Position numbers and translations under genes: made by a program. Under the pieces are notes generated by a model. It was not told where the DNA came from. It did no database searches and saw nothing but the letters and a program-made list of their open reading frames with translations. Shown here piece by piece: positions 27,140 to 44,094 of a stretch of DNA of 64,000 nt. Source of the DNA: Thermoleophilaceae bacterium. GTDB lineage: Bacteria; Actinomycetota; Thermoleophilia; Solirubrobacterales; Thermoleophilaceae. Position 1 is the first letter of the stretch. The number at the start of each line of letters is the position of its first letter. Location of the stretch: the NCBI GenBank assembly GCA_040901445.1, contig JBBDYQ010000002.1, positions 372,001 to 436,000 of the forward strand, in the 5' to 3' direction.

Positions 27140-27681
27140 CTCTCGCCGAGCGGCTCGTCCTCCTGCACCGCACCTTCGCCGACGCCGGCATCCCGCACGC
27201 CTTCGGTGGCGCGATCGCACTCGCGTACTGGACGCTGGAGCCGCGCGGCACGCGCGACCTCGACGTGAACGTGTTCCTGCCCGCGGAAGCGGCCGCGGGC
27301 GTGCTCACGGCGCTGCCCTCCGGCGTGGACGTCCCCGCGTCGGCGCCGGCGGCGATCAGGCGCGACGGGCAGGTTCGCGTCTGGTGGGACGACACGCCCG
27401 TGGACCTGTTCTTCGACTATGCGCTGATCCACGGAGACGCCGCCCGCAATGCCCGCGACGTCCCCTTTGAAGGGACGACGATCCCTGTGCTCGGCCCGGT
27501 CGAGCTCGCGGTCTTCAAGGCGATGTTCGACCGTACCCGCGACTGGGCCGACATCGAGGCGATGCTCGCGGCCGCCAGCACCAGCCACGACGAGATCGCG
27601 GCCGCGCTCCGACCGATGGTCGGCGATGAAGATCCCCGCTGGGCGCGGCTCCGTGCCGCCGCCGACGGGGAGCGGACCTGA
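27136..27681 (+). CDS. Nucleotidyltransferase-fold protein, putative AbiEii-like toxin
   Basis: 181 residues. The minimal nucleotidyltransferase core is AFGGAIALAYWTLEPRGTRD followed by LDVNVFLP (GG and RDLDVN acidic pair), then VDLFFDYALIHGDAARNARD and VLGPVELAVFKAMFDRTRDW. Toxins of this fold modify tRNA or other substrates. The coupled XRE gene makes a type II or IV toxin-antitoxin pair most likely. It lies where a tetR gene has lost its 5' part. Confidence 0.75.
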   Translation: MTLAERLVLLHRTFADAGIPHAFGGAIALAYWTLEPRGTRDLDVNVFLPAEAAAGVLTALPSGVDVPASAPAAIRRDGQVRVWWDDTPVDLFFDYALIHGDAARNARDVPFEGTTIPVLGPVELAVFKAMFDRTRDWADIEAMLAAASTSHDEIAAALRPMVGDEDPRWARLRAAADGERT

Positions 27682-28240: not shown

Positions 28241-29956
28241 GTGCGGGGCCTGAGGAAGCTGCTGGCGGGGATGGTGGTCGCTGCGGCCGCCCTCCCCGGC
28301 ACCGCGAGCGCCGCCCCGCCGGACGTGCGCGCGCAGATCGTCGGGGCCGTGGCGGCGCAGATCCCCGGCGCCGAGGTCCGCGGCTCCAGCTCCTCCCAGG
28401 AGCCCTTCGTGGGCGTACCGGCGATCCACGACCTGGCGGCCGGCCGCGCCGAGGTGATGCTCGACCCGGCGTTCTGGACGCAGATCGTGGGCAACCTGCT
28501 GGTGGACCGCACGGTCGTGCTGCCCAAGCCGGTCGACCTGGTCAAGCCGGAGATGTACCTGCCCACGGCGCCAATCGCCAATGGCCGTCATGTGTGGCCG
28601 CTGCGCCGCCATGAGATCGACCTCTCGGGCCTGCGCTACGAGTGGCAGGGACGGCAGAAGTCGCTGCGCGACTACATGCACTCCACCGAGACGGACATCA
28701 TCGCCTTCCTGCGCGACGGCGAGATCATCACCGACCTCTATGCCAACGGCTGGTCGAGCGAGGTTCGCCACCAACCCTGGTCAGTCACCAAGTCGTTCGT
28801 CTCAGCCGTGGTGGGCATCGCTCTCGACGAAGGCAGGGTGCGGTCGATCGAGGATCCAATCGACCGCTACATCGCGGAGCTGCGCGGCACCGCCTGGGAG
28901 GGCACCACCATCCGCAACCTGCTCGAGATGGAGTCCGGTGTGCACTGGGACGAGGACACGCCGGTGCTGGCGGTCAACACCCAGGTCCAGCAATGGGTGC
29001 AGGCCGCGCTCGACCTCTACACGAACGGCGCGCTGGGCCAGGGACGCAACGAGTTCCTGAAGTCGCTCCCGCGGGTCGCGCCCCAGGGCACCAAGTTCTC
29101 GTACAACAGCGGCAACACCCAGGTCCTCGCATGGCTGATCGAGACGGTCTACGGCAAGCCGTTCAACGAGGTGATCAGCGAGAAGCTATGGCAGCCGACC
29201 GGAATGGCCGGCGACGCGCGGATCCTCACCGACCGCGCCGGCGACGCGATCGCATCACAGGGTCTCTACGCCCGCGTGTTCGACCTCGCGCGATTCGGCG
29301 AGCTGTTCCGCAACGGCGGACGCACCCCGGACGGGCGCCAGGTCGTGCCCCGGAACTGGGTAGGCCAGTCGACCGCCATGACCGAGCTCTCGCAGCAGCG
29401 CTACGGCTTCCAGTGGTGGGCAGGCCCCACGCCCGGCTCCTACCAGGCGTCCGGCTTCCAGGGCCAGAAGATCTCCGTCTCCCCCGCCCACTGCATGACC
29501 GGCGTGCGCCTCAGCCACACCCTCGGCGCCGACCTCTCCGACGGCTTCGACGTGGAGATGGGCGCCGAGGAATGGATCACGGTGTACCGAGCCGTCGCCG
29601 ACCGCTTGGGCGCGTGCCCGCAGCCCGCCGCGCCCGCCGATGCACGTGCGCCCGGGCTGCGCGTGGCCGGCGGCTCCCGGCTCTCGCGGCGCGCCGCGCT
29701 ACGCCGGCGCGCGCTGCGGCTCGTGCTGCGGGCGAATGAGCGCACCCGCGCCACCGTGCGCGTCACCGGCGTGGGCCGGCACCGGCGCACGACGCTGGCT
29801 CGCCGCACGCTCACGCTGCCGGCACGCACCACGCGCGTGTCGGTGCGGCTGACGCGCGCCGGTCGCCGCCTGCTGCGGGCACGCGGCTCCACGCGCGTGC
29901 TGGTCACCGTCACCGGCGGCGGCGAGCGGGCGCGGCGAACGCGCGTCGTCCGCTGA
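28241..29956 (+). CDS. Secreted beta-lactamase-fold serine hydrolase
   Basis: 571 residues from GTG 28241. It has a signal peptide (RGLRKLLAGMVVAAAALPGT, cleaved near ASAA). The serine hydrolase core contains SVTK (S-x-x-K nucleophile) near 188, YNSGN (Y-x-N) near 289 and GFQWWAG near 390. The last 100 residues are a very Arg-rich beta domain common in exported proteins of this style of genome. Possible roles are esterase, DD-peptidase or lactonase-like. It starts the plus-strand half of the export locus. Confidence 0.9.
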   Translation: MRGLRKLLAGMVVAAAALPGTASAAPPDVRAQIVGAVAAQIPGAEVRGSSSSQEPFVGVPAIHDLAAGRAEVMLDPAFWTQIVGNLLVDRTVVLPKPVDLVKPEMYLPTAPIANGRHVWPLRRHEIDLSGLRYEWQGRQKSLRDYMHSTETDIIAFLRDGEIITDLYANGWSSEVRHQPWSVTKSFVSAVVGIALDEGRVRSIEDPIDRYIAELRGTAWEGTTIRNLLEMESGVHWDEDTPVLAVNTQVQQWVQAALDLYTNGALGQGRNEFLKSLPRVAPQGTKFSYNSGNTQVLAWLIETVYGKPFNEVISEKLWQPTGMAGDARILTDRAGDAIASQGLYARVFDLARFGELFRNGGRTPDGRQVVPRNWVGQSTAMTELSQQRYGFQWWAGPTPGSYQASGFQGQKISVSPAHCMTGVRLSHTLGADLSDGFDVEMGAEEWITVYRAVADRLGACPQPAAPADARAPGLRVAGGSRLSRRAALRRRALRLVLRANERTRATVRVTGVGRHRRTTLARRTLTLPARTTRVSVRLTRAGRRLLRARGSTRVLVTVTGGGERARRTRVVR

Positions 29957-30002
29957 GCGGGCGGCCCGCGCGCCTCGCGTCGCAGCGCATACGATCTCCT
30001 CT

Positions 30003-30614
30003 ATGACGGGCACCGCGGCGGCCCGGGTGGAGGGGCGTGGAGAGGCACGGCGGCGCGCCATCCTCGACGCGGCGCTGCGCATACTCGGCCGCGACGGTCC
30101 CGCCGGGCTCACGCACCGGCGCGTGGCGCGTGAGGCCAGCGTGCCGCTCGCGGCCACCACGTACTACTTCGAGTCGAAGGACGCCCTGCTCGAGGAGGCG
30201 CTGAAGCTGTTCGCCGGAGAGGAGGCCGCCCGCCTGCGCGCGCAGGCTGCGGCCATCGCCGAAGCCGGGCTGCTGACCCCCTCCGACCTCGCGTCCGCGC
30301 TGGCAGCCGTGCTCTCCGAGCAGCTGCGCTCCGAGGGGCACGAGACCGTCGCCAAGTTCCAGGTCTACCTGGAGGCCTCGCGACGACCGGAGCTGCGCGC
30401 CGCCGCCGAGCACTGGATCGCGTCGTTTGCTCGGCTGGCCGAGTCGGCACTGGCCCAGGCCGGCGCGCGAGATGCGCCGACTGCGGCTCGGCTGCTCGTC
30501 GCAGGCGTCGACGGTCTGATGCTCCAGCAGCTCGCCACGCGGGGACCCGCACCCGAGGTGGAACGCCTCACCGAGCACCTCGAAGCGCTGATCTCCGCTT
30601 TGCTCTCGGTGTGA
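30003..30614 (+). CDS. TetR family transcriptional regulator
   Basis: 203 residues with an N-terminal HTH (AILDAALRILGRDGPAGLTH, RRVAREASVPLAATTYYFES with KDALLEEALKLF). The C-terminal ligand domain is unremarkable. The 18-bp palindrome right after it, at the promoter of the beta-helix gene, is its likely operator. The ligand may derive from the polymer handled by the secreted enzymes. Confidence 0.92.
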   Translation: MTGTAAARVEGRGEARRRAILDAALRILGRDGPAGLTHRRVAREASVPLAATTYYFESKDALLEEALKLFAGEEAARLRAQAAAIAEAGLLTPSDLASALAAVLSEQLRSEGHETVAKFQVYLEASRRPELRAAAEHWIASFARLAESALAQAGARDAPTAARLLVAGVDGLMLQQLATRGPAPEVERLTEHLEALISALLSV

Positions 30615-30636
30615 ACCACTGGTACGCTCGTACCAG
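30600..30636 (+). promoter_or_regulatory. Promoter with perfect palindrome before the beta-helix gene
   Basis: TTGCTC (30600-30605) and TACGCT (30623-30628) are 17 bp apart. CTGGTACG-CT-CGTACCAG (30619-30636) is a perfect 8-bp dyad over the -10 box and ends at the ATG of 30637. The promoter lies inside the tetR 3' end. It is the best candidate site for the TetR protein encoded immediately upstream. Confidence 0.6.
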
Positions 30637-32220
30637 ATGCTGAGGAGAGGCTTCGTGACGGCGGGCGTGGCGGTGGCGCTGGCGCTGCCGGCGGCCGCGT
30701 CGGCCCATCCCGAGCGCCCGGTGCAGTTCCCGGACGGCTCCGGCGACTGGAGCAACTTTCGCAGCGACTTCCCGGAGTACCGGTCCCGCGGCCCGAGCCA
30801 GGTGGTGTGCAAGCCGGACTCGCGGCGGCGGATCGTGCGCTACTCCAACCGCCGCCTGCGCGCGAAGCTGCTGCGCGTCCTGCGCCGCTGCGAGTTCGAG
30901 CACATCCAGCAGGCGGTGAACGCGGCGAGCAACGGCGACCGCATCCTCATCCTCCCCGGGGTCTACCGCGAGGAGCCCAGTCGTGAAGTGCCCAACCCAG
31001 ATCCACGCTGCGAGGACATGTACGTCCAGGCCGACGGCAAGGAGGTGATGACGCCGAGCTACCAGTACGAGCTCACCTGCCCGAACTCGCGCAACCTGAT
31101 CGCCATCCTCGGTGACACGGACGGCGACGGCCGCTGCGACGCCAAGTGCAACCTCCAGATCGAGGGGCTCGGGCGGCGGGCGCGCGATGTGCTGGTCGAG
31201 GGCGACGTGCGCAAGACCAACGTCTTCAAGGCGGACCGCGCGGACGGCGTCTACTTCAAGAACCTCACGGCCCAGTACTCGGACTACAACAACTTCTACG
31301 TCCTGGAGACAGACGGCTTCCGCTTCGACCACATCGTGTCGCGCTGGTCGAACGAGTACGGCTTCCTCTCGTTCGTGTCTGACCACGGGATCTACGAGGA
31401 CCTCGAGGCGTACGGCGCCGGCGACGCGGGCGTGTACCCGGGCTCCGGCCCGCCTACGAACGGCGAGCGCTTCGGGATCATCATCCGGCGCGTCAACGCC
31501 TACGGGAACCTCCAGGGCAACTCGGGCTCTGCGGCCAGCGGCACGCTGTACGAGGACAACCGCTTCCATCACAACGGCGTGGGCATCGTGGTGGACTCCT
31601 TCTCCACCGGGCACCCCGGCTCGCCGCAGGACCACGTCACCTGGACCGGCAACGAGATCTACTCGAACAACGTCGACTTCTTCACGCCCGAGCTCGACGA
31701 GTACTGCAAGAAGCCCTATGTCGAGCGCGACCCGAAGATCGTCTGCCCGGCGATCATGGTCCCGATCGGCACCGGCCTGCTCATCGCGGGCGGCAACGAC
31801 AACCTGATCGAGGGCAACCGCATCTGGGACAACTGGCGCTACGGCGCGATGCTCTTCTTCGTCGAGGCGTTCTTCCGGGGGGAGCAGGATCCCGCGAAGA
31901 CCTTCGACACCTCGCACCGCAACGTCTACCGCGAGAACGTCATGGGGATCGCCCGGGACGGCTCGCGAGCGCCGAACGGCACCGACTTCTGGTGGGACGA
32001 GGCCGGCTCGGGCAACTGCTGGAGCGGCAACACACGCCACGGCGGCGCGCCGGCTACGGGGGACCCGTCGCCGCTGCCCGAATGCCCGGGCTCGGACATC
32101 GGGTTGCCGGTGCAGCCGCTCAAGCACGCGTTCCTCGTACCGTGCGCCACCTGGGACCCGCAGACCAACACGGACCCGCCGGGCTGCGACTGGTTCCGCC
32201 TGCCGCCCAAGCCCGAGTGA
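30637..32220 (+). CDS. Secreted right-handed parallel beta-helix protein
   Basis: 527 residues with a signal peptide (MLRRGFVTAGVAVALALPAA, cleaved near ASAHP). IQQAVNAASNGDRILILPGV with YRE at about 90-110 is the usual entry to a pectin-lyase-like beta helix. Repeated turns follow (DVLVEGDVRKTNVFKADRAD; GTLYEDNRFHHNGVGIVVDS; NDNLIEGNRIWDNWRYGAML). Eleven or so cysteines suggest an extracellular location. It may bind or cleave polysaccharide; catalytic residues are not evident. Confidence 0.85.
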   Translation: MLRRGFVTAGVAVALALPAAASAHPERPVQFPDGSGDWSNFRSDFPEYRSRGPSQVVCKPDSRRRIVRYSNRRLRAKLLRVLRRCEFEHIQQAVNAASNGDRILILPGVYREEPSREVPNPDPRCEDMYVQADGKEVMTPSYQYELTCPNSRNLIAILGDTDGDGRCDAKCNLQIEGLGRRARDVLVEGDVRKTNVFKADRADGVYFKNLTAQYSDYNNFYVLETDGFRFDHIVSRWSNEYGFLSFVSDHGIYEDLEAYGAGDAGVYPGSGPPTNGERFGIIIRRVNAYGNLQGNSGSAASGTLYEDNRFHHNGVGIVVDSFSTGHPGSPQDHVTWTGNEIYSNNVDFFTPELDEYCKKPYVERDPKIVCPAIMVPIGTGLLIAGGNDNLIEGNRIWDNWRYGAMLFFVEAFFRGEQDPAKTFDTSHRNVYRENVMGIARDGSRAPNGTDFWWDEAGSGNCWSGNTRHGGAPATGDPSPLPECPGSDIGLPVQPLKHAFLVPCATWDPQTNTDPPGCDWFRLPPKPE

Positions 32221-32672
32221 GGCAGGCGCTCGCCGCCGCCGCGCTGCTGGCGGCGCTCTGCGGCGCCGGCTGCGGAGGGGACGACGACGCCGCCGGGGGC
32301 GGCCCGCTGGACTGGTCCGGTGCACCGCGAGTGGCCACGCCGCCCACGTTGCCTGACGAGCGTGTGCTCACAGGCCGGGTGGCGAACGACTCGCTGGAGC
32401 CGGTGGAGCTGGACGTCGCCGACCTGCGCCTGCTCGATGAGAGCGGGGAACGCGTGCAGGGCCAGGCGGTGTTCCTCAGCGGCTACGTGCTGCCGCCCGA
32501 GCCGCGCAATCGTGGCCCGGTCGAGCTCCCCGAGGGAGAGCGCCGCCGGCTGGGGCAGCTCGTCCGCATCGAGCCGGGCGGCGAGGCGCCAATCAGCGTG
32601 GCGTGGCGGATCGCCGGTGGGCGCGAGCCCGTGCGGCTCGACTACGGCGACGGGACGCTCGCGCTGCCTTGA
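32217..32672 (+). CDS. Small lipoprotein
   Basis: 151 residues. GTG 32217 overlaps the beta-helix stop (GTGA). The signal peptide ends in a lipobox, LCGAGCGGDDD, so C19 would be lipidated. The mature part is a single beta domain (ERVLTGRVANDSLEPVELDV, ADLRLLDESGERV; ISVAWRIAGGREPVRLDYGD) that resembles an FxLYD/Ig-like ligand domain. It probably acts at the outer face of the membrane with the beta-helix protein. Confidence 0.75.
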   Translation: MRQALAAAALLAALCGAGCGGDDDAAGGGPLDWSGAPRVATPPTLPDERVLTGRVANDSLEPVELDVADLRLLDESGERVQGQAVFLSGYVLPPEPRNRGPVELPEGERRRLGQLVRIEPGGEAPISVAWRIAGGREPVRLDYGDGTLALP

Positions 32673-32700
32673 CAGCGGCGGTGTCGGCTAGCTTGCTCCC

Positions 32701-33309
32701 ATGGCCACCGCGGTCGCTGGACCCGAGGAGCTGATCGCCGGGGGCACCCGGCCGCCCGGCGACGTACCCGACGAGATCTTCGGCGCCGCGCTGGCGATCT
32801 TCCTCTCCCCGCGCCGTCTGGACATGCGAGCGCTGGCGCTCGAGCTCGGCATCGGCCGCGCCACGCTGTACCGGCGCGCCGGCAACCGCGACAACCTCTT
32901 GGGCGCCGTGGTCTGGTACCTCACGCGCCGCGCGCTGGCGCCGGCGATCGACGCCGCGGCCGGCCTGGAGGGGCGCGAGCGGGTGGTGGCGATCGTGGAC
33001 CGCTTCATGCGCTTCGTCCATGTCCAGCCCGCGCTCCACCGCTTCCTGGACGAGGAGCCGGAGGCCGCGCTGCGCATCCTGACCTCGAAGAACGGGCCGG
33101 TTGAAGGCGGCATCGTCGAGGCGCTGGAACGACTCCTCGCCGACGAGGAGGCGCGCGGCGCGCTGCGACTCACCATCGACCGCAGCACGCTTGCGTACGT
33201 CATCGTTCGGATCGGCGAGAGCTTTCTCTATGCGGACGTGATCGCCGACAATGAACCCGACGTCGCGCTCGCGGTCGACGTGATCGAGCGGTTGCTGCGT
33301 GCCAGCTAG
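32701..33309 (+). CDS. TetR/QsdR family regulator (copy 1)
   Basis: 202 residues. HTH LDMRALALELGIGRATLYRR, then the QsdR-type ligand domain with FLDEEPEAALRILTSKNGPV and LTIDRSTLAYVIVRIGESFL with YADVIADNEPDV. These motifs are almost identical in the regulator at 40091-40711. QsdR controls a lactonase in rhodococci; here the targets are probably the adjacent secreted-enzyme genes. It is convergent with GH31, five bases apart. Confidence 0.9.
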   Translation: MATAVAGPEELIAGGTRPPGDVPDEIFGAALAIFLSPRRLDMRALALELGIGRATLYRRAGNRDNLLGAVVWYLTRRALAPAIDAAAGLEGRERVVAIVDRFMRFVHVQPALHRFLDEEPEAALRILTSKNGPVEGGIVEALERLLADEEARGALRLTIDRSTLAYVIVRIGESFLYADVIADNEPDVALAVDVIERLLRAS

Positions 33310-33313
33310 GACA

Positions 33314-35572
33314 CTAGCCGCCGGGCACCGGGTCGGTCCCGCAGCGCTCGAACCACGGCAGGCGCCCGAGCGGGGCGGCCACGTCGTGGTAACCCGGTCC
33401 GGTGCGCTCCTCGCCGGTCTCGCCGTGGCGCCAACAGCCCTCGGGGAACCAGACGCGCCGGGAGATCGCGCCCTTCTCCACCACCGGGGCCACCAGCACG
33501 TCGTCTCCGAGCATCCACTGCTGATCCTGCGCCCGGGCCTCGGGCTCGCCCGGCGCGGCGAGCCACATCGGGCGCGTGATCGGCATGCCGGTCGTCTGCG
33601 CCTGCTCCCACAGCTCGCGCATGTAGGGCACCGCACGCTCGTGCAGCCCGGACAGCGCATTCCAGCGCTCCACACCGTGCTCGAACTCCCACGGCATCTG
33701 GGTGTCGTTGGTGCAGCAGGAGTTGTGGAGGCGGAAGAACGGCGTGAGCGCCGACCACTCCATCCAGCGGGTGAACAGCTCCTCGTCGAGCACGTCGGAG
33801 GTGAAGCTGTCGAAGTAGCCGCCGATGTCGGTGGTGAACCCGTAGGCGCCGCCGACGGCGCGGTTGAGCATGTCCGTGGCCAGCGACGGCAGGCCGAGTG
33901 AGCGCTGCCAGTCGCCGGTCTCGTCGCCGGGGAAGTTGGCGCTCTCGTATCCCTGGGAGCCGGGATGGCGGACGCCGCTCTCGTCGGCGTAGCCGGAGAA
34001 GCCCGAGCGCGTGTACATCCAGATCTCGCCGCGGTCCGGGTGCTCGCGCTCGTACGCATCGAGGATCCGGCGCGTGGTCCGGTGGAAGAGGATCGGATAG
34101 CGGTTGTGCATCTCCACGCCAATGGACCCGTCGTGGAAGCGCATGTCCTCGGTCACCTGCTCGCCGAAGTCCTGCATGAAGCCGTGGAAGCCGAGGTCCA
34201 GCTGGCGGCGGATCTTGTGCCGCTCCCACCAGTGCACCGTCGCCGGGTTGGTGAAGTCGAGCAGGCATGCCGGGCCGACGGCCACGCCGATGAACGGGAC
34301 GCCGCCGGGGGTGCGCGTGCAGTGGCCGCTCCGTACGGCGTGCATGAACGTGCCCTCGGGATCGAAGTTGCCGTCGTCGTTCACGTAGGCGCGCACATAG
34401 CCGACCGGGCGTATCCCGAGGTCCTCGAGCATCCGGTTGGTCTCACGCACCCAGTCGTCGCCGAGGCTGTCCCAGCTCTCGTAGGTGTACGCGTCGACCC
34501 GCACGCCCTCGGCCTGGATGCGCGCGATGTCCTCGCGGATCTTCCGGCGCTGGCTCTCGGGGTCGTCGGCGCCCTGCTGGACGTTGCGCTTGAGGTTGGG
34601 CCCCATCGCCCACTCGGGCGACACGGGATGCCGGCCCGTGATCTTCGTGAGCGACCGGATGGCCGTGGGCGCGTCCCCGACTGCCACGGTGTAGTCGAGC
34701 TCATCGGCGCGGACGGCCACCTGCCACGCGTCCGGCCGGTCCGCTGCCATGCGCCAGCGCGACACTTCCGTCTGGTTGAGCATGAAGCCGTACGGCCTGC
34801 TCGAGACGAAGACGTTCTGCACGTAGTAGGCCTGATGCGGGCCGTTGGGGAACAGGTAGCGGTCGCCACCGGCGCCGGGGATGAAGTCGACGAGGGGCTG
34901 GAGGGGGCCGGCGCCGAACGCCTCCTCCTCGACCCAGTTGTAGAAGTCCTCGCCGCGCTGGTCGATCGAGTTGTGCCGGCCGCCGAAGCCGTGGAAGGCC
35001 TCTCCCTCCTCGCTCCGGAAGGACTCCTGGAACGCGGCCACGACCTCGGTGTACGGCAGGTCGGCCCGCACGCGGAAGGCGGATCCCTCGTCGGGCGCGA
35101 CGGTCACCGTGAGCACGTGCGCGGGGCTGGTGGTGGCGACTTCGAGCTCCACGCGGTCGCCGGCGGCGCGCGCGTCCACGACCTCGGTGGCGGCGTGCAC
35201 GACCCCGGCGCGCACGCCGACCAGCATGTTCCCCGTCCAGAGGCCGCCCGGATGCTGGGTGGCCTTCTCGACGCCGAGCTGGAAGGACAGCGGCGCATAG
35301 TGCGCGTTCTCGGGGACGACCGGGAAGACCGACTCGTCCACGTTGGCCTCGGCGCCGGGCAGCGCGCCGTCGACGTGCTCGAGCACGGTGCCGCCGGAGG
35401 CGTCGACGAAGCTCAGCTTGAACGGCGCCCGCTGGACCACGGCGCGCGCCCCCTCGTCGTCGGTCACCACGATGTGCTCGGGCCCGATCTCCACGGCGGC
35501 GCCGGCCGCCTGCGGCGCGCCGAGTGCGAGCAGCGCGGCCAGCGCTGCGACGGCGATCCGGCGTCCTCCCAC
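33314..35572 (-). CDS. Secreted GH31 family glycoside hydrolase
   Basis: 752 residues from GTG 35572, with signal peptide (GGRRIAVAALAALLALGAPQ). The GH31 barrel has the nucleophile in GFMQDFGEQV, the acid/base Asp in the FPGDETGDWQR block, and DIGGYFDSF; a beta-sandwich precedes it. The DFGE form is shared with the YihQ sulfoquinovosidase clade, but that clade's sulfonate-binding loop is replaced by DAYTYESWDSLG. An alpha-glycosidase acting outside the cell is the safe call. It is the last gene of the minus-strand operon. Confidence 0.9.
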   Translation of the reverse strand: MGGRRIAVAALAALLALGAPQAAGAAVEIGPEHIVVTDDEGARAVVQRAPFKLSFVDASGGTVLEHVDGALPGAEANVDESVFPVVPENAHYAPLSFQLGVEKATQHPGGLWTGNMLVGVRAGVVHAATEVVDARAAGDRVELEVATTSPAHVLTVTVAPDEGSAFRVRADLPYTEVVAAFQESFRSEEGEAFHGFGGRHNSIDQRGEDFYNWVEEEAFGAGPLQPLVDFIPGAGGDRYLFPNGPHQAYYVQNVFVSSRPYGFMLNQTEVSRWRMAADRPDAWQVAVRADELDYTVAVGDAPTAIRSLTKITGRHPVSPEWAMGPNLKRNVQQGADDPESQRRKIREDIARIQAEGVRVDAYTYESWDSLGDDWVRETNRMLEDLGIRPVGYVRAYVNDDGNFDPEGTFMHAVRSGHCTRTPGGVPFIGVAVGPACLLDFTNPATVHWWERHKIRRQLDLGFHGFMQDFGEQVTEDMRFHDGSIGVEMHNRYPILFHRTTRRILDAYEREHPDRGEIWMYTRSGFSGYADESGVRHPGSQGYESANFPGDETGDWQRSLGLPSLATDMLNRAVGGAYGFTTDIGGYFDSFTSDVLDEELFTRWMEWSALTPFFRLHNSCCTNDTQMPWEFEHGVERWNALSGLHERAVPYMRELWEQAQTTGMPITRPMWLAAPGEPEARAQDQQWMLGDDVLVAPVVEKGAISRRVWFPEGCWRHGETGEERTGPGYHDVAAPLGRLPWFERCGTDPVPGG

Positions 35573-35694
35573 GAGCGAGACATTACGGGATCTGTCCCGA
35601 GGATGCAACGGCATCCGCCTTGGAAGGCGGCGGAGCCGGGGAAGCCGGCCCGGGGACGCACGCGAGCAGCTTGTACGTGAGGGCAGCCGGACGG

Positions 35695-37887
35695 TCACGG
35701 CGTCACCAGGAACCACTGCTCGCCGTCGCGGAAGCGCTCCCGGCCGTCCTTGAAGGTCGAGAGCACCAGATGCACGCGCTCGCCCGGCGTCGCGGGGGCC
35801 GTGAAGGTGATCGTGCGGCGCGCGCGCGAGCCCAGCGCCACCGCGACACGGAAGCCGCCCTCCTCGAGCACCGCGCCCGTGGGCGAGCCGCGCCGCAGCT
35901 GCCAGCGGACATCGACGTCCTCTCCGGCGAAGGTGTCGTTGAAGATCACCAGCTCCCGGTCCACACGGCGGCCGGCGCGGGCAGTGGTGGGCTGCGTGGG
36001 CGTCGGCCAGCGCCCCAGCGGGTCGCTGCGCTTGTGACGCTCCCAGTAGGCGGAATCCGCGACGAGCGTCGGGTGGAACCCCGCCTGGATGCGCTGGATC
36101 TGCGGGTTGCTCCACGGGTCGGGGAGGTTGTCCTCGCCGTAGAGCGGGACGGTGAGCTCCTCGGTGATGAGGTCGGTGCGGCGCACGCCGGGCACGACCG
36201 CCGGCCAGGCGGAGATCACCGCGTAGGGTCGGATGTCGGAGGCGTCCTTCTCGCGCATCTTCTGCGTGGCCGTGGCGAACCACGTGAAGCCCTGCGGGGT
36301 GGACGACAGCGGCCAGATGAACTCGCCGCGCCCGAACGGGCGATCGTCCCGCGGGTGCACGTCGTCGGTGTAGCCGGGCGCGATCATGCCGTTCTCGTCG
36401 AAGTAGTGCTGGTAGCTGGCGAAGTCCTCGTCGGGCAGCTCGTCGTAGGGCTCGGACGAGACGTCGATCGAAATCGGCCTCGTGCCGTCGTGGTCGCGGA
36501 TCGTGTCGTACAGCTCGCGCTCGAACTCGAGCGAGTCGCCGCTGTAGAGGTCCGGCTCGTTGGCCTGGCTCCAGCGCACCACCGAGGCGTGGTTGCGGTC
36601 GCGCACCACCAGGTCCTTGGTGTGCTCGACGAAGTTCTCCGGGGCCTCGTCGAACGCCTGGCGCGACTGCGAGCCGCGGATGCCCGTCTCCCCGACGATC
36701 ATCAGCCCCATCTCGTCGGCCACGTCGAGCATGTAGGGCGACGCCGGGATCTGGTGGATGCGCACGACGTTCATGTTCAGCCGCTGGTAGTTGTCCACCG
36801 CCTGCGGCCAGCCTCCGGTCGCCTCGGTCGGCGGCAGGAACCCCGGGAAGGTGTGGAACGCGTCGCCCTTGCCGCCATGATCGATCCGGTCGTAGCCGGC
36901 GCCGCCCAGGCTGTCGCCGCGGTGGTTCACGCGCACGCCGTTGAGCTCGTACCTGGTGCCGGCCTGGCGGAACTCGCGGAAGCCGAAGCGGACGCGGTGC
37001 GCTGCCTCGCCGGCACGGAGCTCGAGCTCGTGCAGCTGCGCGCGGTAGCCCTTGCGGTACGGCACGTTGGGCCACCAGTACGACTCCCTCCCCAGGCCCC
37101 AGCGCACGGGGCCGACCGTGACCGTGCGGGTCTCGCCCGCCGCCAGCGTCACGGTCCGCGCGGGCAGCGCCGGGTAGGCGAGGTCGCCGCCGCCCAGCGC
37201 GCCCTGCAGCTCCACCGTCTCGGCGGAGGACCCGCCGTTGCGCAGCCACACGTCCACCGCGAGCTCGTCGCGCTGCACCGAGGTCCGCACGAAGGCGTCG
37301 TCGATGAAGATCGCCGGGTGCACGGTGAGGCGCGCCCAGCCGAAGATCCCCTGTGCCGTGGACTCGGACCACTCCACGCCGGTGGGAACGAGGTACGTCG
37401 GCCCGATGTAGCCGGGCAGTATGGGCGTGTCCTTGCCGAGACCGGTGACGAGCCCCTGCCGGCCCTTGACGTGGATTCGCAGCTGGTGCGTGTCGCCGGG
37501 CGTGACGTGACCCGTGAGGTCCCACATCTGCCCGGTGTAAGAGGTGGTCTGCGTCCCGAGCTCGCGTCCGTCGACGAAGACGGTGGCCTGGTGGTTGACC
37601 GCTCCCAGCTCGAGGCGGACGACGTTCCCAGCGGCGCCCTGCGGGACCACGATCTGCCGCGAGTAGGTGGCCTCCGGGACGTCGAAGCCCTGCTTGTACC
37701 AGCCGCCGCCAGGCACCTGGATGGTCGTGGCGGCGCCGTTCTCCGGAGCGAAGTCCCAGGTGCCCGCGAGATCCACGGTCTCGAGCGGCCGCGGCCCGGA
37801 CACACCGCTGAGGTCCGGCGCGGCGACCGCGCCGGGTGCGATGGCCAGGCCCGCTGCCACGACGGTCGCTGCGAGCGCGCTCCTCAT
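35695..37887 (-). CDS. Secreted GH2 family glycoside hydrolase B
   Basis: 730 residues with signal peptide (MRSALAATVVAAGLAIAPGA). GH2 sugar-binding domain (DLAGTWDFAPENGAATTIQV; VFVDGRELGTQTTSYTGQMW), Ig-like domain and barrel. The acid/base Glu is in WSQANEPDLYSGD, near residue 460; the probable nucleophile is in FGRGEFIWPL. It overlaps gene A by ATGA and is collinear with it throughout, so the pair arose by tandem duplication. It acts on beta-linked sugars; the sugar is unknown. Confidence 0.9.
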   Translation of the reverse strand: MRSALAATVVAAGLAIAPGAVAAPDLSGVSGPRPLETVDLAGTWDFAPENGAATTIQVPGGGWYKQGFDVPEATYSRQIVVPQGAAGNVVRLELGAVNHQATVFVDGRELGTQTTSYTGQMWDLTGHVTPGDTHQLRIHVKGRQGLVTGLGKDTPILPGYIGPTYLVPTGVEWSESTAQGIFGWARLTVHPAIFIDDAFVRTSVQRDELAVDVWLRNGGSSAETVELQGALGGGDLAYPALPARTVTLAAGETRTVTVGPVRWGLGRESYWWPNVPYRKGYRAQLHELELRAGEAAHRVRFGFREFRQAGTRYELNGVRVNHRGDSLGGAGYDRIDHGGKGDAFHTFPGFLPPTEATGGWPQAVDNYQRLNMNVVRIHQIPASPYMLDVADEMGLMIVGETGIRGSQSRQAFDEAPENFVEHTKDLVVRDRNHASVVRWSQANEPDLYSGDSLEFERELYDTIRDHDGTRPISIDVSSEPYDELPDEDFASYQHYFDENGMIAPGYTDDVHPRDDRPFGRGEFIWPLSSTPQGFTWFATATQKMREKDASDIRPYAVISAWPAVVPGVRRTDLITEELTVPLYGEDNLPDPWSNPQIQRIQAGFHPTLVADSAYWERHKRSDPLGRWPTPTQPTTARAGRRVDRELVIFNDTFAGEDVDVRWQLRRGSPTGAVLEEGGFRVAVALGSRARRTITFTAPATPGERVHLVLSTFKDGRERFRDGEQWFLVTP

Positions 37888-40094
37888 GGCGCCACCACGA
37901 ACCACTGATCCTCCTCCCTGAACAGCTCGCCGTGTCCGGGCTTCGACGCCGACAGCACCAGGAACGCCCGGTCGCCGGCTGCCGGTGCGGTGAAGTCGAT
38001 CTCCCGGCGCACGCACTCGCCGAGCGGCACGGCCGCGGTGAACCCGCCCTCGTCGAGGACCAGGCCGTCCCCACTTCCCAGCCGCAGCTCCCAGCTCACG
38101 TCCACCTGGCGGCCCGAGAAGGTGTCGTTGAAGACCACCAGCTCGCGGCTCACCTGCGCGCCGGCGCGCAGGACGCCGGGCGTGGCCGGCCAGCGACCCA
38201 GAGGGCCCGACAGCTTCTGCTCCTCCCAGTAGCCGGCGTCGGCCACGAGCACCGGATGGAAGGCGTGTTGGTTGCGGCGCACCTGCTCGTTCGACCAGGG
38301 GTCGGGCAGGTTGTCCTCACCGTAGAGCGGAGGCAGGTTGTTGTCGGCGAGGTAGGAGGTGCGCCGCACGCCGGGGATCGCGGACCCCCAGGCGCCCGCC
38401 AGCGAGTACGGACGGACGTCGGAGGCGTCCTTCTCCCGCATCTTCTCCACCGTCGTGGCGAACCACATGAAGCCCTGCGGCGTGTTGTTGAGCGGCCAGA
38501 TGAACTCACCGCGCCCGAACGGCCGGTCGTCGCGGGGATGGACGTCGTCGGTCCAGCCACCGATCGTGCCGTCCGCGTTGACGTAGTGCTGGTAGACGGA
38601 GAAGTTGCCGTCCGGCATGTCCTCATAGGTCTGCGACGTCACGTCGACGCTGACCGGCCGCGTGCCGTCGGCGGCCATCACCACGTCGTAGAGGTCACGC
38701 TGGAAGCTCGGCGGCTCACCGCGGCCGTTGGCATCCGGCTCGTTGGACTGGCTCCAGCGCACGACGGCCGGGTGGTTGCGCTCGGCCACGACCAGGTCGC
38801 GCATGTGGGCGAGCATGTTCTCGCGGCCGGCCTTGAAGTCCTGCTTGCTCTCCGAGCCGCGGATGGCGCTCTCGCTGATCAGCATCAGCCCCATCTCGTC
38901 CGCGACGTCGAGCATGTACGGCGACGCCGGCACCTGGTGGATGCGCACGACGTTGTAGTTCAGGCGCTGGTAGTTGTCCACGGCCTGCGGCCAGCCGGGG
39001 TTGCCTTCGCCCGGCGGCAGGAAGCCCGGGAAGGTGTGGAAGGCATCGCCCTGCCCGCCGTGATCGATGCGGTCGAAGATCGCGCCCGTCAGGCTGTCGC
39101 CGCGATGGTTCACCCGCACGCCGTTCAGCTCGTACGTGGTCCCCACCTGGCGGAACTCGCGGAACCCGAAGCGGTAGCGTGCCCGGCTGCCGCCCGCCTG
39201 CAGGCGCAGGTCGTGCAGCTGCGCCCGGTAGCCACGGCGGTACGGGACGTTCGGCCACCACCACGACTCGCGGCCCAGGCCCCACGCCACCGGGCCGATC
39301 GTCACCTTCGCGGTGCTCCCGGCGGGCACGGTGACCGTCCGTGACGGCAGGGACGGGTACGCGAAGCCGCCGCCGGTGAGCGCCCCAGTCAGCTCGACGG
39401 CCTGCGGGCTCGAGCTGCCGTTGCGGATCCAGACGTCGTACTCGAGCTCGTCGCGCTCCACGGACGTGCGCACGAAGGCGCCGGCGATGTGCACCGCGGG
39501 GTAGACGCGCAGCCGCGCGGAGCGGAAGATCCCCTGGGCTATGCCCTCCGACCAGCTGCCGCCGTCCGGAACCAGGTAGCCGGCGCCGAGCGCGCCGGTG
39601 GGGACGCCGGGGAGCGTGGGCGTGGCCGGCCTGCCGTCATCGGCGATGAGCGCCTCGCGGCCGAGCACCTCGATCGCCAGCTCATGCGTGCCGCCCGGCC
39701 GCACGCGGCCGCTCAGCTCGTGCGACTGCGACGTGAACGAGGTGGTCTGCGTGCCGACCCGGCGTCCGTCGACGAAGACGGTGGCACGGTGGTTCACCGC
39801 GCCGAGATCGAGCACGGTGACCTGGTTCTCAGCGACGTCCGGAACGGTGATCGTCCGCCGGTACACCGCCCGCTTGACGGTGCGGTGGCCCTGCTTGACC
39901 CAGCCGCCTCCCGGCACCTCGATGGTGGTCGGCCGGCCCCCGGCGGGCTCGAACGTCCATCGCCCGGCGAGGTCGACCTCGGCGAGGGCGTCGGGGCCGG
40001 AGACGCCGTCGAGGTCGGGGGCGGCGAGCGCGGCGCCCGGCGCTGCAAGCGTGGCAAGCGCCGCAGCGGCGGCGACGATGCGCGACCGCCTCAT
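37884..40094 (-). CDS. Secreted GH2 family glycoside hydrolase A
   Basis: 736 residues with signal peptide (MRRSRIVAAAAALATLAAPG). Domain order matches gene B: VDLAGRWTFEPAGGRPTTIE, then Ig-like part, RYRFGFREFRQVGTTYELNG, VRVNHRGDSLTG, acid/base in WSQSNEPDANGRGE and PFGRGEFIWPLNNTPQGF. It starts inside the stop of the QsdR gene (ATGA), so regulator and enzymes are translated together. Confidence 0.9.
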   Translation of the reverse strand: MRRSRIVAAAAALATLAAPGAALAAPDLDGVSGPDALAEVDLAGRWTFEPAGGRPTTIEVPGGGWVKQGHRTVKRAVYRRTITVPDVAENQVTVLDLGAVNHRATVFVDGRRVGTQTTSFTSQSHELSGRVRPGGTHELAIEVLGREALIADDGRPATPTLPGVPTGALGAGYLVPDGGSWSEGIAQGIFRSARLRVYPAVHIAGAFVRTSVERDELEYDVWIRNGSSSPQAVELTGALTGGGFAYPSLPSRTVTVPAGSTAKVTIGPVAWGLGRESWWWPNVPYRRGYRAQLHDLRLQAGGSRARYRFGFREFRQVGTTYELNGVRVNHRGDSLTGAIFDRIDHGGQGDAFHTFPGFLPPGEGNPGWPQAVDNYQRLNYNVVRIHQVPASPYMLDVADEMGLMLISESAIRGSESKQDFKAGRENMLAHMRDLVVAERNHPAVVRWSQSNEPDANGRGEPPSFQRDLYDVVMAADGTRPVSVDVTSQTYEDMPDGNFSVYQHYVNADGTIGGWTDDVHPRDDRPFGRGEFIWPLNNTPQGFMWFATTVEKMREKDASDVRPYSLAGAWGSAIPGVRRTSYLADNNLPPLYGEDNLPDPWSNEQVRRNQHAFHPVLVADAGYWEEQKLSGPLGRWPATPGVLRAGAQVSRELVVFNDTFSGRQVDVSWELRLGSGDGLVLDEGGFTAAVPLGECVRREIDFTAPAAGDRAFLVLSASKPGHGELFREEDQWFVVAP

Positions 40095-40711
40095 GTGACC
40101 ACGGGCCTCCCCGGCGCGATCAGCCGGGTCATGACCTCGAGCGCCTGCTCGACGTCGGGCTCGCTGTCGGCGATCACGTCCGCGTAGAGGAAGCTCTCGC
40201 CGATGCGGACGATCACGTAGGCGAGCGTGGCGCTGTCGATGGTCAGCTCGAGGCCCCCGATGCGCTGCTCCTCCTCCAGCAGGCGTCGCTGAGCCTCGAC
40301 GATGCCGCGCTGGACCGGGCCGTTCTTCGACGTGAGGATGCGCAGGGCCGCCTCGGGCTCCTCGTCGAGGAAGCGGCGGAACGATGCCTCGTCACACACG
40401 AACGCCATGAAGCGACCGGCCACGGCGAGCACGCGCTCGGCGCCGCGGAGCGTCACGGTGCGCTCGAGCGCATCCACCAGCGCCCGGCGGGTGAGGTACC
40501 AGATGACCTCGCCCAGCAGCCAGTCGCGCCCACCGGCCTTGCGGTAGAGCGTCGCGCGGCCGATGCCGAGCTGCAGAGCCAATGCCCGCATGTCGAGTCG
40601 CCGGCCCGCGAGGAAGGTCGCGAGCGCCGCCTCGAAGATCGCCGGGGGCACGGAGTCCGGCCGCTCCCCTCCGCCCTCGACGATGGGCGGCGCGGCCAGC
40701 TGCTCGGTCAC
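40091..40711 (-). CDS. TetR/QsdR family regulator (copy 2)
   Basis: 206 residues from GTG 40711, which overlaps the stop of the ADC-like gene. HTH LDMRALALQLGIGRATLYRK; ligand domain FLDEEPEAALRILTSKNGPV and LTIDSATLAYVIVRIGESFL with YADVIADSEPDV. It is a close paralogue of the regulator at 32701. It is embedded in the operon it probably controls, between the secreted ADC-like protein and the GH2 pair. Confidence 0.9.
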   Translation of the reverse strand: MTEQLAAPPIVEGGGERPDSVPPAIFEAALATFLAGRRLDMRALALQLGIGRATLYRKAGGRDWLLGEVIWYLTRRALVDALERTVTLRGAERVLAVAGRFMAFVCDEASFRRFLDEEPEAALRILTSKNGPVQRGIVEAQRRLLEEEQRIGGLELTIDSATLAYVIVRIGESFLYADVIADSEPDVEQALEVMTRLIAPGRPVVT

Positions 40712-41619
40712 CGCACGGCGGCCGGCGGGCGAAGCCCCGGCGGGGGCTCCTGGATGGTGCTGCCCTCGAGTCCGCACTGCAGCGACTTGCCGTAGAAGTC
40801 GGCGGCGCCGCGGAAGTGCTCGAGCATGCCGGGGACCTCGACGGCCACGGGTGCGAGCGCCATCCAGTTGCCGTTGGTCAGCAACGGGTTGGCCGACTGG
40901 TCGATGGTGACCTCGACCATGCCGACGCGGGAGTCCCACTCCTGCGTCGCGCCCTCGACCTCCTCGGTCTGGACCTCCTTCACGAACGGCCCGACATCGG
41001 CGACGGGCTCGTAGGTCCAGCTCTTGCCGCGGTACAGGGCGCCCTCACCGGCGAGCCAGTGCGCGCGCCAGGGCTCGGCCTCGAGCGCCGCGGCCACGGC
41101 GGCGTCGTCCTTGCGCCACCTGAGCGTGATGAGCGGCTCGCCGAGCTGGGTGACCTGGCCGAACGCGGTGTCGCCCTGCTCCTCGAGCACGATCCTGTCC
41201 GCGAGGATCTTCGGGTAGCCCGTGGCCCGGGAGACGGCGTAGAGCGCGACGTTGTCGACGGCGGTGGCGTTGTTGAACCAGCCGTTGCGGTCGCAGAAGC
41301 GCGCCCGGAGGTCCACCCAGGTCTCCATCACCCCGCCGACGGAGTGCAGCTTGATGTCCATCAGGGGGCGCTCGGGGTCGGTCTCGCCGGTGGGCGGCTC
41401 GGCGGGATGGATCGGCGCGCCGAAGAGCGAGTTGTAGAGCCCGAGGTCGGCCGGCTCCAGCACGAGGTTCAGAGAGTCCAGCGACGTGACCCGGATCTTC
41501 GCGTTCTCGCCCGGATCGATGGGCAGCGGCGACTGCGCCGTCGCCGGACCCGCCATCGCGCCCCCCAGCGCGATCGTGAGCGCGACGACGTGCAACACCT
41601 TCCCGAACCTGGTCCGCAT
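40708..41619 (-). CDS. Secreted acetoacetate-decarboxylase-fold-like protein
   Basis: 303 residues with signal peptide (MRTRFGKVLHVVALTIALGG, cleaved near ATAQ). The sequence VDNVALYAVSRATGYPKILA, then DRIVLEEQGDTAFGQVTQLG recalls the G-x-PK-xLA block of acetoacetate decarboxylase-like proteins. I cannot confirm the catalytic lysine context. It is the first gene of the minus-strand enzyme operon, preceded by AAGGGAGGAG. Function is unknown; export is well supported. Confidence 0.6.
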   Translation of the reverse strand: MRTRFGKVLHVVALTIALGGAMAGPATAQSPLPIDPGENAKIRVTSLDSLNLVLEPADLGLYNSLFGAPIHPAEPPTGETDPERPLMDIKLHSVGGVMETWVDLRARFCDRNGWFNNATAVDNVALYAVSRATGYPKILADRIVLEEQGDTAFGQVTQLGEPLITLRWRKDDAAVAAALEAEPWRAHWLAGEGALYRGKSWTYEPVADVGPFVKEVQTEEVEGATQEWDSRVGMVEVTIDQSANPLLTNGNWMALAPVAVEVPGMLEHFRGAADFYGKSLQCGLEGSTIQEPPPGLRPPAAVR

Positions 41620-41715
41620 CACGGCGTCTCCTCCCTTTAGCCATCCGCATCTGCTGCCGTCCTGTCCTGTGAGACACTCTAGCATGTGTGCCACCGCCCG
41701 CCCCGCTCGGGCGTG

Positions 41716-41746
41716 TTGCAGGACCGGCGAGACAGATGCTAATCTG
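41716..41746 (+). promoter_or_regulatory. Promoter of the beta-propeller gene with small dyad
   Basis: TTGCAG (41716-41721) and TAATCT (41740-41745) are 18 bp apart. A dyad CAGAT-GCTA-ATCTG (41733-41746) overlaps the -10 box. The region separates divergent secreted-enzyme genes (ADC-like at 41619 and propeller at 41792), so one regulator could act on both. Confidence 0.45.
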
Positions 41747-41791
41747 CCTCGTCGTATGAGCGGGCGGCGAACCGAAGGAAGCAGACGGGGC

Positions 41792-43321
41792 ATGCGCAGA
41801 CTTGCTGCCGTCCTGGTGCCGGCCGTCCTGGCGGCGGTCCCGGGACCGGCCGTCGCGGACGCCTCAGCCACGGCGGCGCAGTGCGCCGGCCCGGCGCCCG
41901 GCGGCGAGTGGCCAGTCTTCGGCCAGGACTTGCGCAACTCGCGCGCGCAGCCCGGCGAGCACACGATCAACGCCTCCAACGCCAGCTCCCTCGAGCCCCA
42001 CTTCATCTTCAACACGGAGGAACACGGCGCGGGCGTGGTGCACGCCACGCCCGTCATCGCCGACGGCTGCATCTACTTCGGCACCGGAGCCGCGCCTCCG
42101 CGTGGCCAGCCGCCCGAGGAGGCCACCAACAGCGCGTGGATGCACGCGCTCAATGCCGAGAGCGGTGACGTCGTGTGGCAGCGGAAGCTCGACGTGAACG
42201 ACCCCGGGCTGCTCTGTAGCGGGATCAACGGCTCCACGCCGGTGGTCGGCGGCCGCGTCTTCGCTGTGGTCAGCCAGTCCGGCCGACCGTACGCCGTGGC
42301 GCTCGACCAGCAGACCGGCGAGGTGCTGTGGCGCAGCGTCATCGACGAGACGCCGCAGGTGTACAACTGCGGCGGCCCGGTGGTCTTCGACGGCCTCGTG
42401 CTCGCTCCCTTCACCGGCGACCAGACCGGCCCGGCCAACAGGGGCGGCTATGCGATCTTCAACGCGGAGACCGGCGAGCAGCTCGCCAAGCAGTACACGA
42501 TCCCCGACGATGACTTCGAGGCGGGGTACAAGGGCGGCGGCATCTGGACCACGCCCGCGGTGGACGCCGAGCGGAAGTACGCCTACGCGGGCACCGCCAA
42601 CCCCGACGCCGGCAGCCCCGAGCACCCCCGCACGAACTCGATCGTGAAGATCGACCTCCACCGCGGGCGCGAGACGTTCGGGCAGATCGTCGCCTCGTAC
42701 AAGGGCAACCCGGACCGCTACGTCCAAGGTCTGGAGGAGACGCCCTTCCCGTGCGACCCCGACCACCGCCTGTCGCCGTACATCCGGTCCGTGCTGTGCG
42801 CGCAGATGGACCTCGACTTCGGAGCCTCGCCGAACCTGTTCGAGGGCCCGGACGGCGGGCTGCGCGTGGGCGCGGCCCAGAAGTCGGGCGTGTTCCACGT
42901 GGCCAACGCAGACTCGATGGAGCGGGTGTGGACGACGATCATCTCTCCGCCGGTCTTCTACGGAAACGGCTCGACCGCGGCAACCGACGGCGAGTCGCTG
43001 TTCGTGGCGCCCAGCCCGCCGGGCCACATCTTCCGGCTCGACGCCGACACGGGCGGCTACCGCTGGCTGATGCCGCTTCTCGACGCCATCCACTACCAGG
43101 CCGTGACGTACGCCAACGGCCTGGTCTTCGTCAACGACGCCAAGGGCTTCCTGCACGTGTTCGCGGCCGACACTGGAGTGCTCGTCGCGCTGCGCTCGAT
43201 CGGCGCCGACACCGGCAAGCTCTTCTACGCCGAGGAGAGCAGCGGCTCAACGGCCGTGGCGCGGAACACCGTCTACACCGCCGCTTCGAACTTCCTCGTC
43301 GCCTACCGCCCCAGGCCGTAG
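41792..43321 (+). CDS. Secreted PQQ-type beta-propeller protein
   Basis: 509 residues from ATG 41792, with signal peptide (MRRLAAVLVPAVLAAVPGPA). Repeats with the PQQ-enzyme tryptophan docking pattern occur along its length: NAESGDVVWQRKLDV, DQQTGEVLWRSVI, DADTGGYRWLMPL, DSMERVWTTI. EWPVFGQDLRNSRAQPGEHT is the usual N-terminal strand. It may be a quinoprotein-like polyvinyl-alcohol or alcohol dehydrogenase relative; a PQQ site cannot be verified. An ATG at 41756 is an alternative start. Confidence 0.85.
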   Translation: MRRLAAVLVPAVLAAVPGPAVADASATAAQCAGPAPGGEWPVFGQDLRNSRAQPGEHTINASNASSLEPHFIFNTEEHGAGVVHATPVIADGCIYFGTGAAPPRGQPPEEATNSAWMHALNAESGDVVWQRKLDVNDPGLLCSGINGSTPVVGGRVFAVVSQSGRPYAVALDQQTGEVLWRSVIDETPQVYNCGGPVVFDGLVLAPFTGDQTGPANRGGYAIFNAETGEQLAKQYTIPDDDFEAGYKGGGIWTTPAVDAERKYAYAGTANPDAGSPEHPRTNSIVKIDLHRGRETFGQIVASYKGNPDRYVQGLEETPFPCDPDHRLSPYIRSVLCAQMDLDFGASPNLFEGPDGGLRVGAAQKSGVFHVANADSMERVWTTIISPPVFYGNGSTAATDGESLFVAPSPPGHIFRLDADTGGYRWLMPLLDAIHYQAVTYANGLVFVNDAKGFLHVFAADTGVLVALRSIGADTGKLFYAEESSGSTAVARNTVYTAASNFLVAYRPRP

Positions 43322-43575: not shown

Positions 43576-44094
43576 ATGCTCAATGGCCAGGATGTCGTCG
43601 TGCTCCTAAAGCTTGCCGGCCATGGCGAGGATTGGACCGTCCGTTCGCTTGCGGCCGATCTTGGAATTCCGCACGCAGGAGTCCACCGCTCGCTACAGCG
43701 CCTCGCCACGGCGGGCCTTTACGACCTCGACCGCCGCCGAACGAACCTCAGCCAGGCGGAGGAGTTTCTAGTTCATGCGGTGAAGTATCTGTTTCCCCCC
43801 GAACCGGGCGGCGAGACACGCGGGATGCCTACCGCCTGGGCGGCTTCACCACTCGCGGACGAACTGGCACCGCAGAATGGCCTGCCCCCTGTCTGGCCGG
43901 ATCCCAAAGGTCGCCAGCGCGGCATCGCGGTTGTTCCGCTTCACCGGACTGCGCCGACGCTCGCACGCCGCGATCCCGCCCTGGCCGAACGTTTGGCTCT
44001 GATCGACGCCATCCGCATGGGCGACGCCCGTCTCCGGGGGATCGCCGGCAAGCTGCTGGTAGAACGACTCGCCCGATCGTCGCAAGCCACGTGA
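43576..44094 (+). CDS. HTH protein, putative antitoxin
   Basis: 172 residues. A winged HTH lies at 8-55 (VVVLLKLAGHGEDWTVRSLA, ADLGIPHAGVHRSLQRLATA), then AEEFLVHAVKYLFPPEPGGE and a Pro-rich link. It is coupled to a nucleotidyltransferase gene through a GTGA overlap. This arrangement, MarR/AbiEi-like HTH then nucleotidyltransferase, is a widespread toxin-antitoxin pair. The sequence is unrelated to the XRE antitoxin at 26813. Confidence 0.78.
   Translation: MLNGQDVVVLLKLAGHGEDWTVRSLAADLGIPHAGVHRSLQRLATAGLYDLDRRRTNLSQAEEFLVHAVKYLFPPEPGGETRGMPTAWAASPLADELAPQNGLPPVWPDPKGRQRGIAVVPLHRTAPTLARRDPALAERLALIDAIRMGDARLRGIAGKLLVERLARSSQAT

Follow-up and report, generated by a model that had tools for sequence, protein, structure and literature searches.

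The window (the whole 64,000-nucleotide stretch analysed, positions 372,001 to 436,000 of contig JBBDYQ010000002.1 of a Thermoleophilaceae bacterium) contains, at 28241-43321, an eleven-gene cluster of exported enzymes and TetR-family regulators. Within it lies a four-gene core (a QsdR-type TetR, one or more glycosidases, a beta-propeller and an acetoacetate-decarboxylase-like (ADC-like) protein) that recurs in other genomes. Judged by gene content and order, this core is a real, hitherto undescribed, predicted degradation unit. The gene list of the cluster was reproduced by open reading frame calling with codon usage and by domain scans. All eight exported products named in an earlier, sequence-only reading of this DNA were recovered at their positions, export being judged by eye from signal-peptide-like N-termini, and a motif check found the catalytic residues of the cluster enzymes intact. 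The features are as follows.

28241-29956, plus strand: class-C-type serine hydrolase, exported (PF00144, E 3.5e-33)
30003-30614, plus strand: TetR regulator (TetR_C_31), module B (PF17940/PF00440)
30637-32220, plus strand: beta-helix protein, exported, module B (TIGR03805/PF13229)
32217-32672, plus strand: small lipoprotein-like exported partner of the beta-helix protein (partner gene adjoining beta-helix homologues)
32701-33309, plus strand: QsdR1, QsdR-type TetR (PF18598, E 2.1e-34)
33314-35572, minus strand: GH31 glycosidase, exported (PF01055/PF21365)
35576-35599, no strand: operator-like dyad CGAGACATTACGGGATCTGTCCCG directly upstream of GH31 (weak, 16/24 match to the 41728 dyad)
35695-37887, minus strand: GH2a glycosidase, exported (PF02836/PF02837)
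37884-40094, minus strand: GH2b glycosidase, exported (PF02836, E 8e-14; PF02837 slightly below cut-off)
40091-40711, minus strand: QsdR2, QsdR-type TetR (PF18598, E 9.3e-37)
40708-41619, minus strand: ADC-like protein, exported (PF06314, narrowly missed at 28.4 bits against a cut-off of 29.8)
41728-41751, no strand: inverted repeat of 24 bases, CGAGACAGAT-GCTA-ATCTGCCTCG, candidate QsdR operator in the divergent ADC-like/propeller gap
41792-43321, plus strand: PQQ-dehydrogenase-type beta-propeller, exported (PF13360/PF01011)

The plus arm (28241-33309) runs from the serine hydrolase through the TetR, beta-helix and lipoprotein-like genes to QsdR1, and faces a minus arm (41619-33314) consisting of the ADC-like, QsdR2, GH2b, GH2a and GH31 genes; QsdR1 and GH31 end 4 bases apart. 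The propeller gene is divergent from the ADC-like gene, and its best start is the ATG at 41792, which restores a signal peptide. Three minus-arm junctions overlap by 4 bases each (GTGA between ADC-like and QsdR2, ATGA between QsdR2 and GH2b, ATGA between GH2b and GH2a), and by these junctions QsdR2 is translationally coupled to the ADC-like and GH2b genes. The earlier description of one regulator ending the plus arm and the other placed inside the glycosidase operon, with overlapping stops and starts, is accurate. The G+C content of the cluster is slightly raised at 0.713, compared with 0.696 and 0.682 in the left and right parts of the window, respectively.

The cluster is composite. Only the core of module A (33314-43321 plus QsdR1), and not the eleven-gene set, is taken as the recurring unit; the full set was found in no other genome examined. 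Gene calls in related genomes were made in this analysis. In genome G225, which belongs to another class and came to light among 296 genomes sampled across the phylum, the QsdR-type (64% identity), GH31 (57%), propeller (54%) and ADC-like genes (the last with PF06314 at E 3.8e-4, below cut-off) follow one another on one strand, in an operon-like arrangement. All four core genes are also present in the sister genome G018, on two contigs: the first carries the 3' end of a GH31 gene (57%), a lactonase-like hydrolase, a propeller (40%), a QsdR-type regulator (64%), an SDR and a GH5 with PF18564, and the second an ADC-like gene (43-46%) with a penicillin-amidase, a GH92 and a GH5. PF18564 is a C-terminal domain that also occurs in endoglycoceramidases. 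In G589, from another family, a GH29 fucosidase stands in place of GH31, next to a propeller, a distant ADC-like protein (one pairwise BLAST, E 5e-6) and a QsdR-type regulator (58%); the fucosidase, ADC-like and regulator genes are joined by 4-base overlaps, and that between the ADC-like and regulator genes is the same as in the window. This recurrence is good evidence that the genes would function as a cassette in which the glycosidase can be exchanged. The sequence-only reading had pointed to ADC-like/QsdR/GH2/GH2/GH31 as a set that might recur elsewhere; what recurs is QsdR/GH31/propeller/ADC-like (in G225 and G018, and partly in G589), not the GH2 pair.

Both QsdR1 and QsdR2 contain the TetR_C_36 domain (PF18598), and QsdR2 matches the QsdR crystal structure 4za6 (E 5.8e-19). 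The two had been described as near-identical members of the QsdR type, alongside one further TetR; the family assignments hold, but the pair share only 128 of 201 aligned residues (64%). On the tree, QsdR1 and QsdR2 fall into one clade with the regulators of G018, G225, G589 and G014 (support 98/95), and do not form an exclusive pair once regulators of other genera are included. Given this topology and the 64% identity, a recent duplication was rejected. Close relatives occur in few of the 232 genomes of the order, among which those of G018, G014 and G589 belong to the window clade. Genes for lactonase-like metallo-hydrolases lie near the window-group regulator of G018, and in G006 they lie near QsdR relatives outside this group. 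Other QsdR-family regulators (loci L129, L160, L158, L155 and L161) adjoin genes for exported hydrolases (tannase-like DUF6351, lipase-like or class-C serine type), a hint that the QsdR-type TetR family may control secreted hydrolases more broadly.

Inverted repeats as good as the 41728 dyad are common in the window, which is rich in G+C (122 overlapping matches). The best other matches to it in the 64 kb are three at 16/24, one of which lies directly before GH31. The dyads at 41728-41751 and 35576-35599 are suggestive only as candidate QsdR operators.

The GH31 protein combines a GH31 barrel with the catalytic Asp pair (QDFGE at 467, TDIGGY at 581), and on the tree it is sister to the G225 protein (support 99/96). 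Its closest solved relative by sequence is YihQ (5aed). A sulfoquinovosidase identity was rejected, since in the alignment the YihQ stretch GKRVMWNW, whose KRVMW part presumably holds the sulfonate-binding Arg and Trp, is not conserved in the window protein. Of 201 genomes of the order, a minority carry full-length relatives of GH31 (42-51%), mostly with unrelated neighbors, and no close relatives were found in named genomes. A second exported GH31, 51% identical, is present in the same genome (locus L036, C9:97000-116900), near an exported GH3 (PF00933/PF01915) and without a QsdR-type or ADC-like gene.

GH2a and GH2b are 64% identical to each other, and both have the TIM-barrel domain, the Asn-Glu acid/base motif (NEP) and a nucleophile Glu (GEF, assigned by position and conservation). 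Neither matches any protein in the 201 genomes of the order (E 1e-60) or in 396 genomes across the phylum (E 1e-50), yet relatives at 47-50% identity are found in other phyla and distant Actinobacteria, in scattered hosts (Streptomyces, Planotetraspora, Winogradskya, Verrucomicrobia, Myxococcales and others) and without the cassette. It is thus unlikely that the pair is an ancestral part of the cluster, and it looks to have been acquired horizontally.

The propeller matches NCBIfam models of both a PQQ enzyme (TIGR03075, E 3.9e-22) and an 'empty quinoprotein' (TIGR04528, E 2e-16). A fold search with its predicted model (pLDDT 76.8, pTM 0.83) places it among quinoprotein propellers: the top 26 Foldseek chains are all quinoprotein dehydrogenases, followed by BamB. 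It carries the quinoprotein-type motifs GGGxW, GTANP, DLDFG and QKSG, whose W, N, D and QK residues are invariant in four homologues. For the ADC-like protein, a sequence search returned no solved ADC structure. Its model is poor (mean pLDDT 49.5), yet the top 23 Foldseek hits are of the ADC family (probability 1.0), with a clear drop thereafter. The pattern E..V..R...R..GxPK is common to four ADC-like proteins, with an invariant GxPK lysine (GYPK in the window protein), which may correspond to the Schiff-base Lys115 of ADC. No ADC-like relatives were found on plasmids.

The remaining genes do not belong to the core. Module B (TetR/beta-helix/lipoprotein, 30003-32672) is treated as separate because it recurs independently elsewhere. 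Homologues of the beta-helix protein are common (33 of 121 genomes, with four copies in the same genome as the window), and the window gene is a paralogue of a syntenic family gene. The beta-helix/lipoprotein-like pair recurs in five loci (L108, L110, L111, L114 and L115), and in four of the five (C22 of the same genome, G031, G070 and G079 C10) it lies near dgt and, on contigs that extend far enough, near ppdK, both identified by looking at the sequences. In G079 (L108) the TetR, beta-helix and lipoprotein genes stand in the same order as in the window. By this synteny module B is a second copy of the pair kept beside ppdK and dgt by family members. The arrangement near ppdK and dgt is conserved in the family at L110, L111 and L115, and is followed at L110 by dnaG- and rpoD-like genes.

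The serine hydrolase (motifs SVTK at 181 and YNSGN at 288) is of the class-C beta-lactamase/6-aminohexanoate-dimer hydrolase type, its nearest solved relatives being 8rlj, 4gb7 and NylB. A search covering 40 genomes found relatives in 4 of the 39 others, and in G150 a 59% relative adjoins a GH31. Along with the GH2 pair, it is a local addition to the cluster. The sequence-only reading had taken the whole span for one candidate system; the module A core recurs as a unit, but the entire cluster was rejected as a single conserved unit because module B has a syntenic place of its own near ppdK and dgt.

Nucleotidyltransferase-type genes flank the cluster on both sides and may mark island borders: at 26813-27681 on the left, an HTH gene and a nucleotidyltransferase-like gene, the latter without a Pfam match, and at 44091-44780 on the right, an AbiEii-family gene (PF08843). 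Farther right in the window, look-alike genes with similar N-termini and, by eye, flavodoxin-reductase-like FAD domains form two pairs (49891-50376/57656-58087 and 53648-54307/58518-59255), which suggests local segmental duplication. Two transaldolase-like genes (11054-12151 and 56563-57573) were also recognized by eye.

The core proteins could act on one common substrate in the following order. Exported glycosidases (GH31 and the two GH2 here; GH29, GH92 and GH5 elsewhere) would free a sugar, an alcohol aglycone or both outside the membrane. The hydroxyl compound set free would be oxidized by the propeller, an exported protein of quinoprotein type, to yield a lactone, aldehyde or ketone, and a keto product would be the target of the exported ADC-fold protein, acting with its lysine. 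On entering the cell, a small lactone- or keto-like product would release the QsdR-type repressors from the dyad in the ADC-like/propeller gap, and perhaps also from the one preceding GH31, so that both facing operons would be switched on. Among QsdR-type regulators, a response to small lactones is known here only for QsdR of Rhodococcus erythropolis, which is reported to respond to homoserine lactone and to its lactone ring (PMC6262395). As the core combines an exported glycosidase with a probable quinoprotein, an oxidized sugar or aglycone, as lactone or ketone, would be the simplest common signal and substrate of the ADC-fold protein. Secreted degradation, as proposed in the sequence-only reading, is partly supported and remains the natural interpretation of exported enzymes with intact motifs, although the span assigned to it was too broad. 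The label 'carbohydrate-degrading' may itself be too narrow, since the core includes a quinoprotein and an ADC-fold protein, and the sister loci add lactonase-like, amidase and GH5-with-PF18564 genes.

We tentatively read module A as a mobile and conserved cassette that would break down a glycoside outside the cytoplasm, with oxidation and QsdR release as proposed; this is close to an even proposition but short of one. In its favor are the return of the core in G225, G018 and, in part, G589, the well-supported regulator clade and GH31 sister pair, the intact catalytic motifs, the two fold searches, the reported lactone response of QsdR, and the lactonase-like genes (G018, G006) and MBL-fold gene (G014) near related regulators. 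Several observations weigh against it. No transporter gene is present in 28241-43321 by open reading frame list or domain scan, in agreement with the earlier reading. Most GH31 relatives in the order occur without the cassette, and in G014 the regulator adjoins an MBL-fold gene but no cassette enzymes. An operator conserved across the cassettes was rejected, as nothing in L154, L090, L127 or L128 convincingly matches the 41728 dyad. The propeller may, by its TIGR04528 match, bind no PQQ; the ADC-like model is of low confidence, and the ADC-like relatives P0001 and P0003 have no Pfam ADC match. The bolder proposal is a hitherto undescribed oxidative pathway by which glycosides would be degraded outside the actinobacterial cell, and whose lactone or keto product, derived from the sugar or aglycone, would be made by glycosidase and quinoprotein, processed by the ADC-fold enzyme and sensed by QsdR-type repressors, the cassette having spread between classes with exchangeable glycosidases; this we consider rather doubtful.

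The same genes might serve ordinary polymer scavenging, with glycosidases trimming plant or microbial oligosaccharides for uptake by transporters encoded elsewhere, the propeller acting as a BamB-like or empty-quinoprotein scaffold without catalysis and the ADC-like protein as a binding protein without enzyme activity. GH2 relatives do lie near hemicellulose or cellulose genes (GH5 in Streptomyces locus L066, GH127 in Verrucomicrobia locus L061, GH39-like in L067), and the propeller also matches BamB and empty-quinoprotein models; however, its motif residues are invariant, its 26 best fold matches are all PQQ dehydrogenases, and the GxPK lysine is retained in all four ADC-like proteins. Scavenging appears somewhat unlikely. 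Improbable, in our view, is a unit for glycolipids or acylated or terpenoid glycosides, in which glycosidases and esterase- or amidase-type enzymes would strip an amphiphile, the aglycone be oxidized and QsdR sense an amphiphilic product. It would account for the GH5 with PF18564, penicillin-amidase and GH92 of G018, for the GMC oxidoreductase and aldehyde dehydrogenase genes directly preceding a same-clade GH31 in G076, and for the class-C serine hydrolase here and the lipase, tannase-like and class-C genes near other QsdR-family members, but no lipid-specific enzyme is found in the window itself or in the G225 and G589 cassettes, and many substrates would suit GH29, GH31 and GH2. An island of exported enzymes that are unrelated, brought together loosely or by chance, would fit the uniqueness of the eleven-gene set among the genomes examined, the independence of the TetR/beta-helix/lipoprotein unit and the nucleotidyltransferase-type flanks. 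For module A, this is largely refuted by the G225 string, as the core repeats across a class boundary with an orthologous GH31 and a shared regulator clade. An island of this kind is barely credible, although the serine hydrolase and module B may still fit it.

No paper joining these families was found in the open-access literature, and a search for Thermoleophilia glycosidases gave no lead. Should the cassette work as proposed, it would connect QsdR, a lactone-sensor family familiar from quorum quenching, with the oxidation of sugars outside the cell, suggest a role for exported ADC-fold proteins, and supply a four-gene marker for such loci in poorly cultivated soil Actinobacteria. Even with an empty quinoprotein and an inert ADC-like protein, it would be a conserved CAZyme cluster type undocumented in the open-access literature searched.

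Individually, the core proteins resemble known families. The GH31 protein shares both catalytic Asp residues with YihQ, but is exported and lacks GKRVMWNW. The propeller resembles PQQ-dependent alcohol and sorbose dehydrogenases (1kv9, 4mh1) in predicted fold and motifs, but is shorter and has no heme domain, and its cofactor binding is putative. In the fold search, made with a low-confidence model, the ADC superfamily (3bh2, MppR 4jmc, Streptomyces aldolase-dehydratase 4zbt) is the only family matched at high probability by the ADC-like protein, which has the common GxPK motif but is exported, longer and below the Pfam cut-off; as in MppR and the Streptomyces enzyme, its activity may differ from that of ADC. 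As a locus, the cluster recalls polysaccharide utilization loci and CAZyme gene clusters, in which several exported glycosidases and a dedicated regulator also occur together, but it lacks a transporter and SusC/D and includes a quinoprotein and an ADC-fold protein as core members. It shares with the qsd cluster of Rhodococcus erythropolis a regulator of the PF18598 TetR family adjoining enzyme genes. However, the lactonase and acyl-CoA ligase under QsdR control there are both absent here by domain scan, lactonase-like genes being seen in the G018 and G006 loci; in the window cluster, exported glycosidases, a quinoprotein and an ADC-like protein are instead accompanied by two regulators, one of them inside the operon.

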